Below the pieces are notes generated by a model that saw only the letters and a list, made by a program, of their open reading frames with translations, did no database searches and was not told the origin of the DNA. Below, in pieces: positions 3,002 through 12,187 of a stretch of 33,289 bases of DNA (its first letter is position 1; each line of letters begins with the position of its first letter). The stretch is taken from assembly GCA_947174915.1 (NCBI GenBank), contig CAMWKV010000006.1, positions 1 through 33,289 on the forward strand. The letters run 5' to 3'. The DNA is from an uncultured Porphyromonadaceae bacterium (lineage in GTDB: Bacteria; Bacteroidota; Bacteroidia; Bacteroidales; Muribaculaceae). The position numbers and the translations under genes are program-made.

Positions 3002-4198
3002 ATGTCTGAAACTAATACAGCCCAGGCCAAATCAAAGAAGGGTGGTCGACTACTCGCACTGGACATCCTGCGCGGTATCACCATTGCCGGCATGATTATG
3101 GTAAATAATCCGGGCTCATGGGGACATATATACGCACCGCTGGAGCATGCCGAGTGGAACGGTCTTACACCCACCGACCTGGTATTCCCCTTCTTCATGT
3201 TTATCATGGGCGTATCTACTTATTTCTCCCTGCGCAAGTATAATTTCGAGTTCAGTTGGGCATCATTTGCCAAAATTCTCCGTCGCACAGTTGTCATTTA
3301 CCTCATCGGTATTGCCATCGCATGGTTCGGCCTCACTCTTCGCGGAGTAATGGGCGAAAAGACCTTCCTGGAGGCCATCAACAACTTCGACAGAATCCGC
3401 CTCCTTGGCGTAATGCCTCGCTTGGCTCTCTGCTACGGCATAGGCGCCACCTGTGCACTGCTTATACCAAAGAAAGGCCTGCCATGGACCATTGCAGGCA
3501 TGCTTGTCGTATATGCTTTCATCCTCGTGTTCGGCAACGGTTTCGAGTTCTCGGACCGCAATATCATCGCCATCGTCGACCGCACCATCCTCGGTGAGAA
3601 TCACATGTACGCCGACACTGTCGGCGGCGTTCGCCTCAAACTCGATCCCGAAGGCCTCGTCAGCACCCTCCCCTCCATCGCGCACATGCTCATCGGCTAT
3701 CTGTGCGGCTCCCTGATTCTCGGCACCAAAGACAATAGCGAACGCATCAACCGCTTATTCATCGTAGGTACTATACTCACCTTCGCCGGTCTGCTTCTAA
3801 GCTACGGTCTGCCCATCAACAAGAAAGTGTGGTCACCCACCTTCGTGCTCACCACCTGCGGTCTTGCATCAAGCTTCCTGGCTCTCCTGATATGGATTAT
3901 TGACATCAAGGGCTATAAGCGCTGGTGCCGCTTCTTCGAAGCCTTCGGTGTGAACCCCCTCTTCATGTACTGTCTCGGTGCTGTGCTTAGTATAGTTTTC
4001 GGCAGTGTCCGCGTTCCCTACGCTGTCGCTGCCTCCGGCTACACTTCTTTCAACGGCTGGCTCTACAACGCCATTTACGTTCCCGTATGTGGCGGTGACA
4101 TGACACTCGCTTCACTTCTCTCCGCTCTTATATTTGTAATGTTTAACTGGTGTATTGGATACGTCCTCTACAAAAAGAAAATCTATATCTCGATATGA
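3002..4198 (+). CDS. murT: Multi-pass membrane protein of the DUF5009 / heparan-alpha-glucosaminide N-acetyltransferase-like (NagX/MurT) family; likely MurNAc transporter
   Basis: RLLALDILRGITIAGMIMVNNPGSWGHIYAPLEHAEWNGLTPTDLVFPFFMFIMGVS is the family hallmark; about 10 TM segments; directly followed by MurK/MurQ-like genes. Confidence 0.72.
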   Translation: MSETNTAQAKSKKGGRLLALDILRGITIAGMIMVNNPGSWGHIYAPLEHAEWNGLTPTDLVFPFFMFIMGVSTYFSLRKYNFEFSWASFAKILRRTVVIYLIGIAIAWFGLTLRGVMGEKTFLEAINNFDRIRLLGVMPRLALCYGIGATCALLIPKKGLPWTIAGMLVVYAFILVFGNGFEFSDRNIIAIVDRTILGENHMYADTVGGVRLKLDPEGLVSTLPSIAHMLIGYLCGSLILGTKDNSERINRLFIVGTILTFAGLLLSYGLPINKKVWSPTFVLTTCGLASSFLALLIWIIDIKGYKRWCRFFEAFGVNPLFMYCLGAVLSIVFGSVRVPYAVAASGYTSFNGWLYNAIYVPVCGGDMTLASLLSALIFVMFNWCIGYVLYKKKIYISI

Positions 4199-5043
4199 TA
4201 CTTATTGCCGACTGCGGTAGCACCAAGATTGACTGGTGTCTCCTCAATAAAACCCGCGTAGAAAAGCAGGTCTTCACCCTGGGCATGAACGCCGTTATGC
4301 TCACCGAAGAAGAAATGCGCGAGCGTCTCGCAGCCGAACTCCTCCCCGAATTAGGTGACCTGACCAAGAATGTTGTAGCCGTATATTTCTATGGCGCCGG
4401 CTGCATCTCGCCCGAAGTTTGCGGCAACGTGGCGCGCGCTATCAAGCACAACATCCCCTCTGCCGAGACCATCGAAGTGTACTCCGACCTCCTGGCAGCT
4501 GCCCGCGCCCTCTGCGGCCACGAACCCGGTATCGCCTGCATCATGGGCACCGGCTCCAACTCCTGCCTCTATGACGGCACCGGTATTGCTGCCAATGTAT
4601 CGCCCCTCGGCTTCATCCTCGGCGACGAAGGTTCCGGCGCTGTTCTGGGCAAGCTCTTCCTCGGCGACGTGCTCAAGAAGCAGCTCCCCGCTGAGATCTG
4701 CGCGCAGTTCCTCGAAGAATACAATCTCGACCTGCTTACCATCATCCGCCGCGTGTACAAGGAACCTCAGGGCAACCGCTTCCTTGCGTCCGTGACACCC
4801 TTCCTGAGCAAGAATATCAACGTACCCGAGATTCATGAACTCGTACTCAATGCATTCCGCGCCTTCTTCCGCCGCAATATCAAGCAGTACGACAACTATC
4901 AGAACCTCCCCGTCAACATCATCGGCTCTATCGCCTACTACTTCAAGAGCGTACTCGAAGAAGCAGCAGCAGCCGAAGGCTGCACCATCGGCAACATCGT
5001 CAAGAGCCCCATGGAAGGTCTGCTGAAGTTCCACACAGTATAA
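4195..5043 (+). CDS. murK: BadF/BadG/BcrA/BcrD-family sugar kinase (N-acetylmuramate/N-acetylglucosamine kinase)
   Basis: MILIADCGSTKIDWCL phosphate-binding motif, GIACIMGTGSNSCLYDG, GFILGDEGSGAVLGK. Starts at ATGA overlapping the stop of the upstream gene (the ORF track start at 4150 is over-extended). Confidence 0.78.
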   Translation: MILIADCGSTKIDWCLLNKTRVEKQVFTLGMNAVMLTEEEMRERLAAELLPELGDLTKNVVAVYFYGAGCISPEVCGNVARAIKHNIPSAETIEVYSDLLAAARALCGHEPGIACIMGTGSNSCLYDGTGIAANVSPLGFILGDEGSGAVLGKLFLGDVLKKQLPAEICAQFLEEYNLDLLTIIRRVYKEPQGNRFLASVTPFLSKNINVPEIHELVLNAFRAFFRRNIKQYDNYQNLPVNIIGSIAYYFKSVLEEAAAAEGCTIGNIVKSPMEGLLKFHTV

Positions 5044-5060
5044 CAATTATCTCAAACAAT

Positions 5061-5891
5061 ATGGCATTCGTAAAAATCAGCGAGCAGTCCTCGCTCTACA
5101 ACGATCTTGAGAAGAAAAGCGTAGGAGAAATCCTCCACGACATCAACAACGAAGATAAGAAGGTAGCCCTCGCCGTAGAAAAGGCTATCCCCGCTATCGA
5201 AAAACTCGTAGAAGAAATCGTACCCCGCATGAAGCGTGGCGGCCGCATCTTCTACATGGGTGCCGGCACCTCCGGCCGTCTCGGTGTTCTCGATGCCTCT
5301 GAGATTCCTCCCACATTCGGTATGGATCCCACTTGGGTTATCGGCCTCATCGCCGGCGGTGATACTGCTCTCCGCAACCCCGTGGAAAATGCCGAAGATG
5401 ACACCCTCCAGGGCTGGCGCGACCTCGAAGCATTCGATATCAACGACAAAGACACCGTCATCGGTATCGCCGCTTCAGGTACTACTCCCTACGTAATCGG
5501 TGCTATCAAGGAAGCCCGCAAGCACGGTATCCTCACCGCCGCCATCACTTCCAACCCTGATGCTCCCGTGAGCGAAGCTGCCGACATCGCCATTGAGATG
5601 GTAGTAGGTCCGGAATACGTCACCGGCAGCTCCCGTATGAAGAGCGGTACAGGCCAGAAGATGATCTGCAACATGATCACCACTTCCGTCATGATCAAGA
5701 TGGGTCGTGTAAAAGGCAACAAGATGGTGAACATGCAGCTCTCCAACGCCAAACTCGTTGACCGCGGCACACGCATGATTGTCGAAGAACTCGGTATGGA
5801 CTACGAAGATGCTAAGCGTCTTCTCCTCATGCACGGCTCCGTGAAGAAAGCTGTGGATGCTTACCGTGGCATCGAATCCACCGAAGAATAA
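5061..5891 (+). CDS. murQ: N-acetylmuramic acid 6-phosphate etherase
   Basis: GGRIFYMGAGTSGRLGVLDASEIPPTFG, VIGIAASGTTPYVIGA, VGPEYVTGSSRMKSGTGQKMICNMITT are diagnostic MurQ/SIS-domain motifs. Confidence 0.96.
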   Translation: MAFVKISEQSSLYNDLEKKSVGEILHDINNEDKKVALAVEKAIPAIEKLVEEIVPRMKRGGRIFYMGAGTSGRLGVLDASEIPPTFGMDPTWVIGLIAGGDTALRNPVENAEDDTLQGWRDLEAFDINDKDTVIGIAASGTTPYVIGAIKEARKHGILTAAITSNPDAPVSEAADIAIEMVVGPEYVTGSSRMKSGTGQKMICNMITTSVMIKMGRVKGNKMVNMQLSNAKLVDRGTRMIVEELGMDYEDAKRLLLMHGSVKKAVDAYRGIESTEE

Positions 5892-5894
5892 ACC

Positions 5895-6542
5895 ATGCGA
5901 CGTCTCTTTCTTCTGCCGGCTCTCGTCATGTCGTTCTTAGCGGCCAATGCTCAGGACACCTTCCATGAGCAGCGCGCTACTCTCTTCGAACTTCTGCCCG
6001 TCGACAGCACCAACATCGTATTCCTCGGCAACAGTCTCACCAACGGCTGCGAGTGGCACGAGCTCATAGGCAACCCCAAAGTAATCGGCCGTGGTATCAG
6101 CGGTGATACCGCTCCCGGTGTCTATGCGCGTCTTGATCCTATCGTGAAGGGACATCCCGAAAAGATTTTCCTCATGATTGGCGTCAACGACGTAAGCCAT
6201 GCCCTCAGCGCCGACTCTATCGCCACTGATATCGCCAAGGTACTCGACAAGATTACAGCAGAGACACCTTCGACTAAGGTGTACCTCCAGTCGTGCCTGC
6301 CGTTCAACGAATCTTTCAACCGTTGGAAGAATCTTGCCGGTCGCCAGCAAGTAATTCTTGATCTCCACAAGAACCTTGAGCGTATGGCAGCCGAGCGCGG
6401 CATCACCTGGATCAACCTCTACCCTCTCTTCAGCGACGGAGAGGACAATCTGCGCAAGGAATTCACCAACGACGGCTTGCATCTTCTCGGCCCCGCCTAC
6501 ATGGTGTGGAAAGAGGCAGTCCTTCCGTATGTGAATGAATAA
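5895..6542 (+). CDS. Secreted SGNH/GDSL-family hydrolase (esterase)
   Basis: Signal peptide MRRLFLLPALVMSFLAANAQ; block I FLGNSLTNG, GRGISGDT, MIGVNDVS, and C-terminal TNDGLHLLGPAYMVW (D-x-x-H-type block V). Confidence 0.87.
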   Translation: MRRLFLLPALVMSFLAANAQDTFHEQRATLFELLPVDSTNIVFLGNSLTNGCEWHELIGNPKVIGRGISGDTAPGVYARLDPIVKGHPEKIFLMIGVNDVSHALSADSIATDIAKVLDKITAETPSTKVYLQSCLPFNESFNRWKNLAGRQQVILDLHKNLERMAAERGITWINLYPLFSDGEDNLRKEFTNDGLHLLGPAYMVWKEAVLPYVNE

Positions 6543-9024
6543 TATCCCCGATACAGACCAGAGCCGTGCTGTTGAATTTTTCAATGGCACGGCTCTGATA
6601 CTTGCCGGACCGGGATGTGGCAAGACGCACGTGCTCGCCAAGCGCGTGTTCCATGCCTCACGTCTCGGTATAGACTTCAAGGACATGCTGTGCGTCACCT
6701 TCACCAATCGTGCCGCGCGAGAGATGAAGCATCGCATACACGAATATCTGGGCTACGACCCGGCAGGACTCTTTGCCGGCAATCTGCATCGTTTCTGTCT
6801 CCGGTTCTTGATGGAGAACGAGCTTGTGAGCCCTGACATCTCCATCCTCGACGAAGACGACCGCGACGATTATATCCGCAGCCTTCTGCCCGATGAATGT
6901 CACACTCAGGACAATATACAGCAGTTCAAGGTCAAGGCTGCTTATGTGTACCAGCTCAACAACAATCACCCTTACTGGACGCTGCGCCATCCGCGATGCG
7001 AAGAGATAACAGATGACGAGTTGCGACTCATCGAGATGTACGAGGATTTCAAAAAAGATTTCTCGCTCATCGACTTTGATGATATACTTTTGCAGACACT
7101 CACTGCCCTGAATACTCATCCTCGCGGCTCACTGAAATACACTGAATTCCGATGGGTACAGGTTGACGAAGTGCAGGATATGACTCCGCTGCAGCTCTCT
7201 ATCATAGACTCGCTGACACGGACAGCCGACCGTACCCTGGTATATTTCGGCGATGAACAGCAGGCAATCTTCAACTTCCTGGGCGCCGGTGGCCGGGCGC
7301 TTGAATTCATCAAGCAGTCGTGCCGGGGCAATATCCTGCATCTCGGCCGCAACTACCGTTCTCCTCGCCAACTCGTCGAAGCCTGCAACACCTTTGCTGT
7401 CGAAGAATTAGGCCTCGATCCACAATTCCTATCCGCCTCCTACCGCGGCGACGGCAACCGCAGCACTTTGCGACTGATGGAGTCTGCTCGCTACGCTAAA
7501 CAGGAGGATGCGGCATATATATGCCGACAATGGCTCCTTCATGACGAAGGGACCTGTGCCGTCCTGGCGCGAACGAATGCCGAAGCAGAGCGACTCTCCG
7601 AATATTTCCATAGTATCGGGCTGCCTCACTTCCTCGTGAGTCGCCTCGATGTATTTCATCAGGTGCCTTTCCGCACGGTGTGGAGTCATCTTGCCGCAGT
7701 CAGCCAACCGTTCCGTCCCGAACCCTGGGCACGACTGCTATATCAGACACATTCGGTACGTACTATGGCACAAGGTCGGTCGGTAGTACGCTTGCTCCGC
7801 GAAGCGGCTGTGGCCTACGACGAGCTGCTTTGTATCGATGAATCGACACGCGTAGAGCGCTTCGTCGACGTGATGGAATCCAACCGTACCGTAGTTGTAT
7901 TCGACACCGAGACAACAGGTCTTGATGTTCTTACAGACGACATCGTACAGATAGCAGCCGTGAAGATGCGCGGCGGAGAGATAGTCGAAGGTAGCGAGTT
8001 CAACATCTTCATACGCACGACAAAACGTCTGCCGGAATTGCTGCGCGACGAGACTCCGAATCCACTCCTGCGTATCTACGACCACGCAGAAAAGCATGAG
8101 CCTGCCGATGCACTCAAAGCCTTCTTCGACTATGCAGGCTCCGACAGCGTTATTGCCGGACACAATCTCAACTTCGATATTGCCATCCTACGTGAGAATG
8201 TTAGGCGACACATAGGAGAGAAGATTGTTAAAAGCACCGGTAACACCACCGACGAAAGTCTTGAGGAGCAACTCAGCAGAGGCTTGCCCGAAAATTTCGA
8301 GAATGAAAGTCTTGATACGCTCGACATCGCCCGACTGCTGTTCCCAATGTTCCCGGCACACACGCTGGCGCACATGACAGCAGCATTGAGGCTCGAGGTG
8401 AAGAATACCCACATAGCTACAGACGATGCCCTTGCCACTGCCGTACTTGCTCAGTCGCTCGTCGACCTTGCTCAGACAAAAGTAAGGCTTATCAAGGAAG
8501 TGCGCGACAGAATCCATCGTATATCCGACCGATTCCGCGAACACTATGCTTCGTTCTACAATTACTGGCGCAGGATATATTGCGAGCCGGACAACAAGCA
8601 CGACCTGATGGGAGCTATGCAGGCTGCCGCAACATTCTTCGCCGACAAAGGTTATACCAAACCCATAGCCCACTTCGACTACGTCCTACGGCTGATTGAC
8701 CGGTGTGTAGTAGACCCTCGCGAACCATACACCTTCAGGAGTCAAGTGTCGGCACATCTTTTCGACCTTATCTCGTACAACGAGGCCGACCTCTATCTCA
8801 ATGGCATCGTTGACGAACGCCTGTCCGTCATGACCATCCACAAAGCAAAGGGTCTGGAGATGGACAATGTGCTGGTATACAACGCCAACAGCGGCTTCGG
8901 CACGCACGGCGAGCAGGCGAGGCTCCTGTATGTAGCCATGTCGCGCGCCAAACAGCGTCTTGCTATAGCATATTCGGACAGTCTGCCGAAACCACTGCAA
9001 TCCATAGCTCACTTCTTTCATTAG
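6535..9024 (+). CDS. UvrD/Rep (SF1A) helicase with an internal DEDDh (DnaQ/RNase T-like) 3'-5' exonuclease domain
   Basis: Helicase motifs: Walker A AGPGCGKT, TFTNRAAREMK, DEVQD, GDEQQAIFNFLGA, LGRNYRSPRQLVEA, VMTIHKAKGLEMDNV, LLYVAMSRAKQRL. Exonuclease motifs between helicase motifs IV and V: FDTETTGLD (7903), HNLNFDIAIL (8161), HIATDDALA (8410). Confidence 0.92.
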   Translation: MNNIPDTDQSRAVEFFNGTALILAGPGCGKTHVLAKRVFHASRLGIDFKDMLCVTFTNRAAREMKHRIHEYLGYDPAGLFAGNLHRFCLRFLMENELVSPDISILDEDDRDDYIRSLLPDECHTQDNIQQFKVKAAYVYQLNNNHPYWTLRHPRCEEITDDELRLIEMYEDFKKDFSLIDFDDILLQTLTALNTHPRGSLKYTEFRWVQVDEVQDMTPLQLSIIDSLTRTADRTLVYFGDEQQAIFNFLGAGGRALEFIKQSCRGNILHLGRNYRSPRQLVEACNTFAVEELGLDPQFLSASYRGDGNRSTLRLMESARYAKQEDAAYICRQWLLHDEGTCAVLARTNAEAERLSEYFHSIGLPHFLVSRLDVFHQVPFRTVWSHLAAVSQPFRPEPWARLLYQTHSVRTMAQGRSVVRLLREAAVAYDELLCIDESTRVERFVDVMESNRTVVVFDTETTGLDVLTDDIVQIAAVKMRGGEIVEGSEFNIFIRTTKRLPELLRDETPNPLLRIYDHAEKHEPADALKAFFDYAGSDSVIAGHNLNFDIAILRENVRRHIGEKIVKSTGNTTDESLEEQLSRGLPENFENESLDTLDIARLLFPMFPAHTLAHMTAALRLEVKNTHIATDDALATAVLAQSLVDLAQTKVRLIKEVRDRIHRISDRFREHYASFYNYWRRIYCEPDNKHDLMGAMQAAATFFADKGYTKPIAHFDYVLRLIDRCVVDPREPYTFRSQVSAHLFDLISYNEADLYLNGIVDERLSVMTIHKAKGLEMDNVLVYNANSGFGTHGEQARLLYVAMSRAKQRLAIAYSDSLPKPLQSIAHFFH

Positions 9025-10248: not shown

Positions 10249-11445
10249 TTAGTGCTTTATATGCAGAGAGCCATACATCATTGCAGCAAGTGATATGAAT
10301 AATATCAGACTGCCGAGCAGGAGTGCATAGGACTCAAGCGACAAGAGGATATAGCAGCATCCATAAATCGCAGTAAGGATAGAACCTATCACCAGTCCGA
10401 CATTTCTTGACCTGAGCATCCGCCACAGATATCCGGATATCAGAAGCACAGTCATTGCCGAAGCTATCAGATAAGCCACGCCGAAGGATGCATGCTCGGA
10501 GAATGATAGCAGCAGAGTGTAGAATATTACCAGCGCAGCGCCTATCAGAAAGTAGTTAAGCAGTGGAATATTGCGCTTCATCATTATCTCCGCATCGAAC
10601 ACACTCATGAATGTAAGGACAATGATGATAAAGGCATATTTCAGTGCGCGGGACACTTTCTGATAACGGTCAACACCGACGAGGAATTTTGCACCAACTT
10701 CCGGGATATCATAGTGGTGATACTCAGCTTTCTTAGCACCGACAGGCGTTTCAAACTCCCACAGGGCTGAAAAGTTACGTCCTTGCACGCTGCGTTGATT
10801 GGGCAATATACCACTGAACGAGGGATGGCCGGCTTCTCCTTCTATAGATATCGAAGATGCATCTGCCATATCCTTGATGTAGAGCGAGCTTGAGCCGTGA
10901 ATATCAAAATCCGTGGCAAATTCGAGCGTATCGGGCTGCGCTGTCGCATCAATCTTTGCGTAGATATATGAATCTGACTGCTCCCAATTGATTGACTTAC
11001 CGCCAATCGTCAGCGGAGACAGCTTCACTATCTGCCCGGGATTAACCGTAAGCCGAACGTACATTGAATCGGCAGCAACTTTATCTGTATTGAAAGAACC
11101 TGAGATTGCCACGCGAGCATTGAAAACTTCGGCTTCATAGATACTTCGGTGCAATGTCTGCGTTTCGACAGTTGCTTTACAGTTGAAAGTTTCGGGGTAA
11201 AGCCGGACGGCAGTGTCAGGATTTTCCTGTATCGTTGGCGTGGCAATCTCTACCTTTCCACCCCATTCTTTGGCAATCTGACCGGCGACCTTGTCACTGA
11301 GACCTTCACGAGAATCCAATATCACCCATACGACGAGGGTGCCTATCATTAATAGACAGCACTGAAGCCCCAGGAGAAGAGCCTTAGTACCATAAGTCAT
11401 CGGCCTCTTGACCTGTACCTGCACAGGCGTCTGAATATTGTCCAT
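10249..11445 (-). CDS. creD: CreD-family inner membrane protein (with periplasmic region)
   Basis: GSSSLYIKDMADASSISIEGEAGHPSFSGILPNQRSVQGRNFSALWEF, LVGVDRYQKVSRALKYAFIIIVLTF, LIGAALVIFYTLLLSFSEHASFGVAYLIAS, YCYILLSLESYALLLGSLILFI-type CreD signature. Confidence 0.85.
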   Translation of the reverse strand: MDNIQTPVQVQVKRPMTYGTKALLLGLQCCLLMIGTLVVWVILDSREGLSDKVAGQIAKEWGGKVEIATPTIQENPDTAVRLYPETFNCKATVETQTLHRSIYEAEVFNARVAISGSFNTDKVAADSMYVRLTVNPGQIVKLSPLTIGGKSINWEQSDSYIYAKIDATAQPDTLEFATDFDIHGSSSLYIKDMADASSISIEGEAGHPSFSGILPNQRSVQGRNFSALWEFETPVGAKKAEYHHYDIPEVGAKFLVGVDRYQKVSRALKYAFIIIVLTFMSVFDAEIMMKRNIPLLNYFLIGAALVIFYTLLLSFSEHASFGVAYLIASAMTVLLISGYLWRMLRSRNVGLVIGSILTAIYGCCYILLSLESYALLLGSLILFISLAAMMYGSLHIKH

Positions 11446-11448
11446 GGC

Positions 11449-12057
11449 CTATTTGATTATCAGTTCTTCGTCTTCAATGCGCAGTCGGAGAGTGAAATAC
11501 ATGGCTACGGCAATGAGTACAAACAGCACAATACTGCCCACAAGCAGAGCCATCGAGCCTATGCTTATCAAGAGATATATCAAAGCGTATTCCACCACCA
11601 GTATTCCGACCGTCAGTTTCACAGCCTTTGAATTTTCCGTAATTCCCTTTATGAACCATCCAATCAGTCCTACGGTCATGGCAGTAACGATGATATATGA
11701 GGCGGCGAACGGTAATTTCTCAGATATGGCGAGCAGGAGTAGATAGAACAACGCCAAAGCGCATCCTATCAGACCGTATTGGATATAGTTTATACCTTTC
11801 CGGAAGATTACATCTACCATCATGAGAGATACTAATGTGACTGAAATCATAGCAAAGCTGTAGTCGATTGCATCGGACAGCAGTTTGTAGCTTGATTCGG
11901 TGAAGAGTCCACTGTTCATACGATGCGAGGAGATAGTGTAGACACCTCCGGCCAAGAGTGCAAGTACAACCGACGCGCCAAAGACAAAGAGGCAATGAAG
12001 ACCCAGCCACGACATCGTGTACTTGGGCTTACGACAAATTTGATCACATTTTTCCAT
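11449..12057 (-). CDS. CreD-like membrane protein lacking the periplasmic domain (C-terminal TM-region paralog)
   Basis: IDYSFAMISVTLVSLMMVDVIFRKGINYIQYGLIGCALALFYLLLLAISEKLPFAASYIIVTAMTVGLIGW...YALIYLLISIGSMALLVGSIVLFVLIAVAMY aligns by eye to the TM region of the adjacent CreD. Start ATG at 12057 preferred over 12093. Confidence 0.78.
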   Translation of the reverse strand: MEKCDQICRKPKYTMSWLGLHCLFVFGASVVLALLAGGVYTISSHRMNSGLFTESSYKLLSDAIDYSFAMISVTLVSLMMVDVIFRKGINYIQYGLIGCALALFYLLLLAISEKLPFAASYIIVTAMTVGLIGWFIKGITENSKAVKLTVGILVVEYALIYLLISIGSMALLVGSIVLFVLIAVAMYFTLRLRIEDEELIIK

Positions 12058-12187
12058 AGTCAATAAATTTATCAGATTGAGATTACTTCGCAAAAGTAAC
12101 GGATAAATTTGAATATCTTTTATATTTATTCTAATTTTAAGTTTATTAACAGGAGCATCATGTCATAGTATGAATATTGCCGGAGAT

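Follow-up and report, generated by a model that had tools for sequence, protein, structure and literature searches.

A UvrD/Rep-type helicase from Bacteroidales with a DEDDh exonuclease domain embedded in subdomain 2B

Machines that couple a helicase to a nuclease are central to phage defence and DNA repair, and there is active debate on the way in which the 2B subdomain controls SF1A helicases. A gene in a 33,289-nucleotide stretch of DNA (the window, meaning the whole stretch analysed) from a 2.17 Mb Bacteroidales genome raises a question that touches on both topics: how does a DEDDh exonuclease sit inside a UvrD-like motor, and what might such a combination do? Our preferred reading, to which we assign a probability of about 0.6, is that the gene encodes an SF1A 3'-5' helicase or translocase whose 2B subdomain carries a DEDDh exonuclease gained once, and that it would act as an accessory enzyme of DNA repair or 3'-end clean-up. 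If this is correct, a protein common in Bacteroidales/Prevotella and named only '3'-5' exonuclease' would acquire an assigned function.

A helicase chain and its inserted exonuclease

The gene (6535..9024, plus strand, as are all features of it given below) starts with ATG and encodes 829 amino acids. Pfam annotation, proposed as a check in the preliminary description, matched all three domains in this reading frame, namely UvrD-helicase (residues 7-253, 5.4e-43), UvrD_C (residues 269-815, 8.9e-34) and RNase_T (residues 454-636, E=2.7e-23, 83.8 bits against a cut-off of 24). That all SF1A helicase motifs are present, as had been claimed, is borne out by UvrD matches above cut-off and by motif residues that stay constant among 105 distinct relatives carrying the exonuclease domain, down to ~30% identity. 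While K30 and T31 of motif I (Walker A, GPGCGKT, residues 25-31, 6607..6627) are kept in 104/104 aligned rows, the count is 105/105 for D211/E212 of motif II (DEVQD, residues 211-215, 7165..7179), Q243 of motif III (GDEQQ, residues 239-243, 7249..7263), R275 of motif IV (NYRS, residues 273-276, 7351..7362), T767, K772 and G773 of motif V (TIHKAKGLE, residues 767-775, 8833..8859) and R804 of motif VI (YVAMSRA, residues 799-805, 8929..8949). A second alignment keeps the motifs in 25 rows with 29-48% identity to the window protein. Judged by motifs I-VI and by the 1A/1B/2A/2B fold of its structural model, the protein belongs to the SF1A UvrD/Rep helicase superfamily; the UvrD, PcrA and Rep equivalogs do not include it, the scores being 150.8, 149 and 136.9 bits against NCBIfam cut-offs of 1144, 911 and 951.

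The inserted domain spans residues 449-645 (7879..8469), around the RNase_T match, and is missing from orthologues that lack the exonuclease (exo-less hereafter). It contains motif I (DTETTG, residues 457-462, 7903..7920) with D457 and E459, motif II (HNLNFD, residues 543-548, 8161..8178) with D548 and motif III (HIATDD, residues 626-631, 8410..8427) with H626 and D631. The complete DEDDh set that the preliminary description had read here, at positions that proved exact, thus recurs as D, E, D, H, D in the correct order, with all five catalytic residues intact in each of the 105 domain-bearing relatives. Since these and the helicase residues are invariant over so many proteins, a chance match is excluded, and by its active-site set the domain classifies as a DEDDh (DnaQ-like) exonuclease.

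Where the domain sits in three dimensions was modelled by AlphaFold from 31 aligned family members (mean pLDDT 88.9, pTM 0.88). The model gives a complete RNase H-like exonuclease fold, which settles the question of completeness in favour of the earlier claim; disorder is confined to residues 563-582 (8221..8280; pLDDT <50), a loop longer than that of relatives and gapped in the other alignment rows. As for the insertion site, the preliminary description was right to place the domain between helicase motifs IV and V, internally rather than terminally; its idea that the exonuclease takes the place of 2B did not hold, as the domain interrupts 2B instead. Helices of 2B flank it on both sides (first part, helices ~377-448, 7663..7878; second part, ~645-755, 8467..8799), and the same helices form an intact 2B in the model of the exo-less orthologue L018 (pLDDT 88.7; Foldseek match to Rep with TM 0.74), so the exonuclease lies within 2B and does not substitute for it. 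According to DSSP on the AlphaFold model, the helix that ends the exonuclease runs on into the following 2B helix as one continuous helix of 55 residues (628-682, 8416..8580), which suggests that the predicted connection between exonuclease and 2B is stiff. With the whole protein as Foldseek query, the top PDB matches are DNA-bound UvrD, Rep and PcrA, followed by AddA, AdnB and RecB, and no entry among the 50 PDB matches listed carries a description of a helicase that has a DEDDh domain inside its chain.

Distribution and probable gain and loss of the exonuclease

Among congeneric genomes the gene is present in 20 of 36 and absent from 16. An alignment-based scan of genome contigs returned 80 loci, and a query with the single protein returned none. 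The architecture is common in Prevotella, Segatella, Hoylesella and many Bacteroidales MAGs and occurs also in Muribaculaceae; it is sparse in other Bacteroidales (3 genomes outside the family of the window's genome among 393) and in other classes of Bacteroidota (L145-L149). In RefSeq-type annotation, members go by the names "3'-5' exonuclease" or "ATP-dependent helicase". Plasmid copies are found in Phocaeicola vulgatus, Bacteroides fragilis, Prevotella and Chryseobacterium, and one viral contig encodes a member. At least one genome of Clostridia, that of Acetoanaerobium noterae, encodes the same architecture, and it is the single case behind a spread to Bacillota. Bacteroidales-like copies turned up under the labels Clostridium (L097), Succinivibrionaceae (L083) and Kiritimatiellae (L101); these may reflect mis-binning or recent transfer, and since their contigs may be mis-binned we left them out of the evidence for spread. 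On the B. fragilis BFG-481 plasmid (L174, CP103159.1, 7876-10615) the gene lies in two overlapping frames with a break close to where the exonuclease domain begins and is likely a frameshifted copy, unlike the P. vulgatus plasmid copy (L173), which is a single frame.

A tree of exonuclease domains sets 28 inserted ones apart as a single clade (support 97/97) from 18 DEDDh domains that stand alone or are fused in other ways. Because the inserted exonucleases group together, one ancient insertion is likely, that is, a domain gained once and long ago as far as sequences can tell; the same tree does not favour separate insertions in distant members. Loss appears to be a different matter. When the helicase tree was built by quick search and without the exonuclease columns, exo-containing rows surrounded the exo-less ones (all from one genus of draft genomes), with three changes. 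The three exo-less groups, L018/L020/L024, L019/L021 and L022/L023, belong to the window's genus, and the first shares a clade (support 100) with exo-containing L017/L053. A topology that unites all exo-less rows in one clade is rejected (p-AU 4.8e-6), and one that unites L018/L020/L024 with L019/L021 is rejected more weakly (p-AU 0.02). The ends of the deletion vary from one group to another. Taken together, the exonuclease was probably lost cleanly three times within the genus, with the helicase retained. The murQ-like neighbour described below is still present next to exo-less L018 and L020, and L020 has the GDSL lipase gene too; these retained upstream neighbours identify both as same-site orthologues. 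Relocation of the exonuclease to another gene was looked for in six exo-less genomes, where no other copy was found at E<=1e-3.

A stretch of 50-57 residues at the deletion site of L019 and L021 (residues ~430-505) looks like what is left of an exonuclease, and in L021 it contains LARLLFPSRRS, which resembles the exonuclease consensus larllyPklrs. A profile match falls on the site in L021 at only 2.4 bits and elsewhere in L019, so we regard this sequence as a hint of a possible decayed remnant.

Neighbourhood, mechanism and rival readings

Directly upstream of the helicase gene lies a GDSL lipase gene (5895..6542, plus strand) whose stop overlaps the helicase start (ATGAATAA) and whose synteny is kept in the genus. 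It is preceded by a murQ-like SIS-domain gene (5061..5891, plus strand), which also stands upstream in the 18 loci retrieved, exo-less ones among them; two of these 18 loci repeat the window and some duplicate one another. Further upstream come genes for a BadF-type ATPase and an HGSNAT-like protein, and downstream one for a YsxC-type GTPase. The gene that precedes the helicase in a group of 11 Bacteroidales MAG loci is glmS-like, as recognised from sequence alone. Such neighbours speak for a stable chromosomal gene rather than a defence island; the GDSL lipase, murQ-like and YsxC-type genes are uninformative on repair. Seen as a row (window 3002-6542, plus strand), HGSNAT-like gene, BadF-type ATPase, murQ-like SIS protein and GDSL lipase stand in series and overlap the helicase, and this possibly represents an amino-sugar or cell-wall recycling operon, conserved in the genus, that acquired the helicase. 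Elsewhere in the window (10249-12093, minus strand), a full CreD gene (398 aa) stands beside a 214-aa ORF that matches only the C-terminal part of CreD and is a truncated tandem paralogue.

How might motor and nuclease work together? As a 3'-5' motor advances, the complementary strand comes off 5' end first, a polarity that offers the exonuclease no 3' end ahead of the motor. We envisage that the motor would load on a 3' single strand and move 3'-5', thereby unwinding DNA or stripping proteins, and that an active exonuclease would digest the 3'-ended single strand so made available. With 5'-end-first displacement, the substrate in cis would have to be the tracking strand's own 3' tail, unless a second subunit presents a 3' end in trans, as in a 2B-2B dimer; coupling in cis hence requires that the tail extend as far as the exonuclease domain. 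In SF1A helicases, unwinding is under the control of 2B, through either its rotation or the formation of 2B-2B dimers (PMC13238157), and for this reason 2B may also position or gate the exonuclease. A bolder version, which we put forward tentatively and hold to be less probable than its negation, sees 2B as a shared switch whose rotation or dimerisation both sets unwinding and swings the DEDDh site onto or off a DNA 3' end. One conformational change would then choose between unwinding and degradation, and in the natural exo-less orthologues the motor would run without the second output of the switch. Repeated loss implies that the exonuclease is dispensable for the role of the helicase. An active site inside 2B is kept across a large family and removed repeatedly in the orthologues of one genus, and such natural pairs with and without exonuclease provide a means to test what the nuclease contributes and whether 2B couples both activities.

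Other readings have to be weighed against repair or clean-up. The enzyme might mainly be an anti-phage or anti-plasmid effector, in which the helicase finds or unwinds invader DNA for the exonuclease to destroy, in the manner of other defence systems that pair a helicase with a nuclease. Its best PADLOC matches are RTasHel of DRT (1.3e-66) and GajB of Gabija (2e-48), its occurrence among congeneric genomes is patchy, and one member resides on a viral contig. Copies on Bacteroidales plasmids adjoin Fic/RhuM and recombinases, while that on the Chryseobacterium plasmid adjoins a DNA methyltransferase and a DEAD helicase. Moreover, on the Prevotella sp. E2-28 plasmid NZ_CP091789.1 (L182, 6008-25641) a member is found amid TerY-C, Ser/Thr kinase, VWA, PP2C, FGE-like, two FtsK and OmpA genes. 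The PADLOC matches reflect the shared UvrD fold, however, and neither a reverse transcriptase nor GajA nor another defence gene was seen by the window gene, whose housekeeping neighbourhood is conserved in the genus; in some Bacteroidales MAGs the gene adjoins a glmS-like one. We consider defence unlikely as the main role, even though the E2-28 cluster is reason to think that conflict systems may have recruited some members, which in certain mobile contexts could possibly defend against other elements. By eye, several proteins of this cluster, FtsK and FGE included, seem to share an N-terminal helical module; similar flanks occur in L129 (the viral contig) and, for one gene, in L040, and the cluster has the look of a conflict system whose proteins share an adaptor domain.

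RNA or R-loops as the substrate appear improbable to us. The DEDDh superfamily includes RNases, and a helicase that clears RNA-DNA hybrids could be partnered by a domain of the RNase T or Orn kind that trims RNA 3' ends. Binding of RNA polymerase and suppression of R-loops by PcrA/UvrD (PMC8318588) would be in keeping with this. Yet the nearest curated profiles of the exonuclease part are proofreading exonucleases of DNA polymerases (PolC, 5.6e-26) and DnaQ-like proteins, with neither RNase T nor Orn among the closest, and the closest PDB chain is again a PolC exonuclease. It is still harder to credit that the insert mainly serves as a brake on 2B, its nuclease activity being secondary or lost. 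Residence in a regulatory subdomain, from which the domain can vanish while the helicase stays, would fit a structural part, but a scaffold would not need five catalytic residues that are invariant down to ~30% identity. We return to accessory DNA repair or 3'-end clean-up as our preferred role, which would resemble that of MrfAB or S. aureus DinG (see below) and be built on a UvrD chassis.

Comparison with known helicase-nuclease systems

Helicase-nuclease fusions as such are already known. What seems new, in that we have not found it described, is a DEDDh domain embedded in 2B of an SF1A helicase; the open-access literature (subscription papers lay outside the scope of our search) yielded neither a description nor a functional characterisation of this architecture. 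From UvrD, Rep and PcrA, with which the window protein shares all SF1A motifs, the 1A/1B/2A/2B layout and the top PDB matches, it differs by the ~195-residue DEDDh domain inside 2B, and the window's genome carries further UvrD-like paralogues. The closest PADLOC profiles, RTasHel (DRT) and GajB (Gabija), have the UvrD-like fold in common with it but are shorter, too short to contain the insert. Since no reverse transcriptase was found among the window ORFs scanned and no GajA OLD nuclease gene adjoins the helicase gene, membership of DRT or Gabija is rejected for want of partner genes at the locus.

AddA, RecB and AdnB likewise unite a UvrD-like motor with a nuclease on one chain. Their nuclease, though, is a C-terminal PDDEXK domain and they work in heteromeric complexes, whereas the window protein has an internal DEDDh domain, no PDDEXK match to Pfam within its length and no partner gene. 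The window's genome has separate AddAB-like genes, and each of the 14 other congeneric genomes tested gave PDDEXK matches; this co-occurrence rules out a replacement of RecBCD/AddAB. Together with the absence of the gene from 16 of the 36 congeners and the existence of exo-less orthologues, it argues for an accessory enzyme rather than a RecBCD substitute.

Closer in their nuclease chemistry are systems of lesion repair that pair a helicase with a DEDDh exonuclease, in cis as in S. aureus DinG (PMC12345164) or in trans as in MrfAB (PMC11194089). DinG of S. aureus combines helicase and DEDDh 3'-5' exonuclease in a single polypeptide and has a link to crosslink repair (PMC12345164); it is an SF2 enzyme of 5'-3' polarity with the exonuclease fused at its N-terminus, in contrast to the SF1A motor and internal exonuclease found here. 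In B. subtilis, MrfA is a 3'-5' helicase partnered by the DEDDh 3'-5' exonuclease MrfB (PMC11194089; PMC12345164), but MrfA belongs to SF2 and the two activities reside on separate proteins, while the window protein carries both on one UvrD-like chain.
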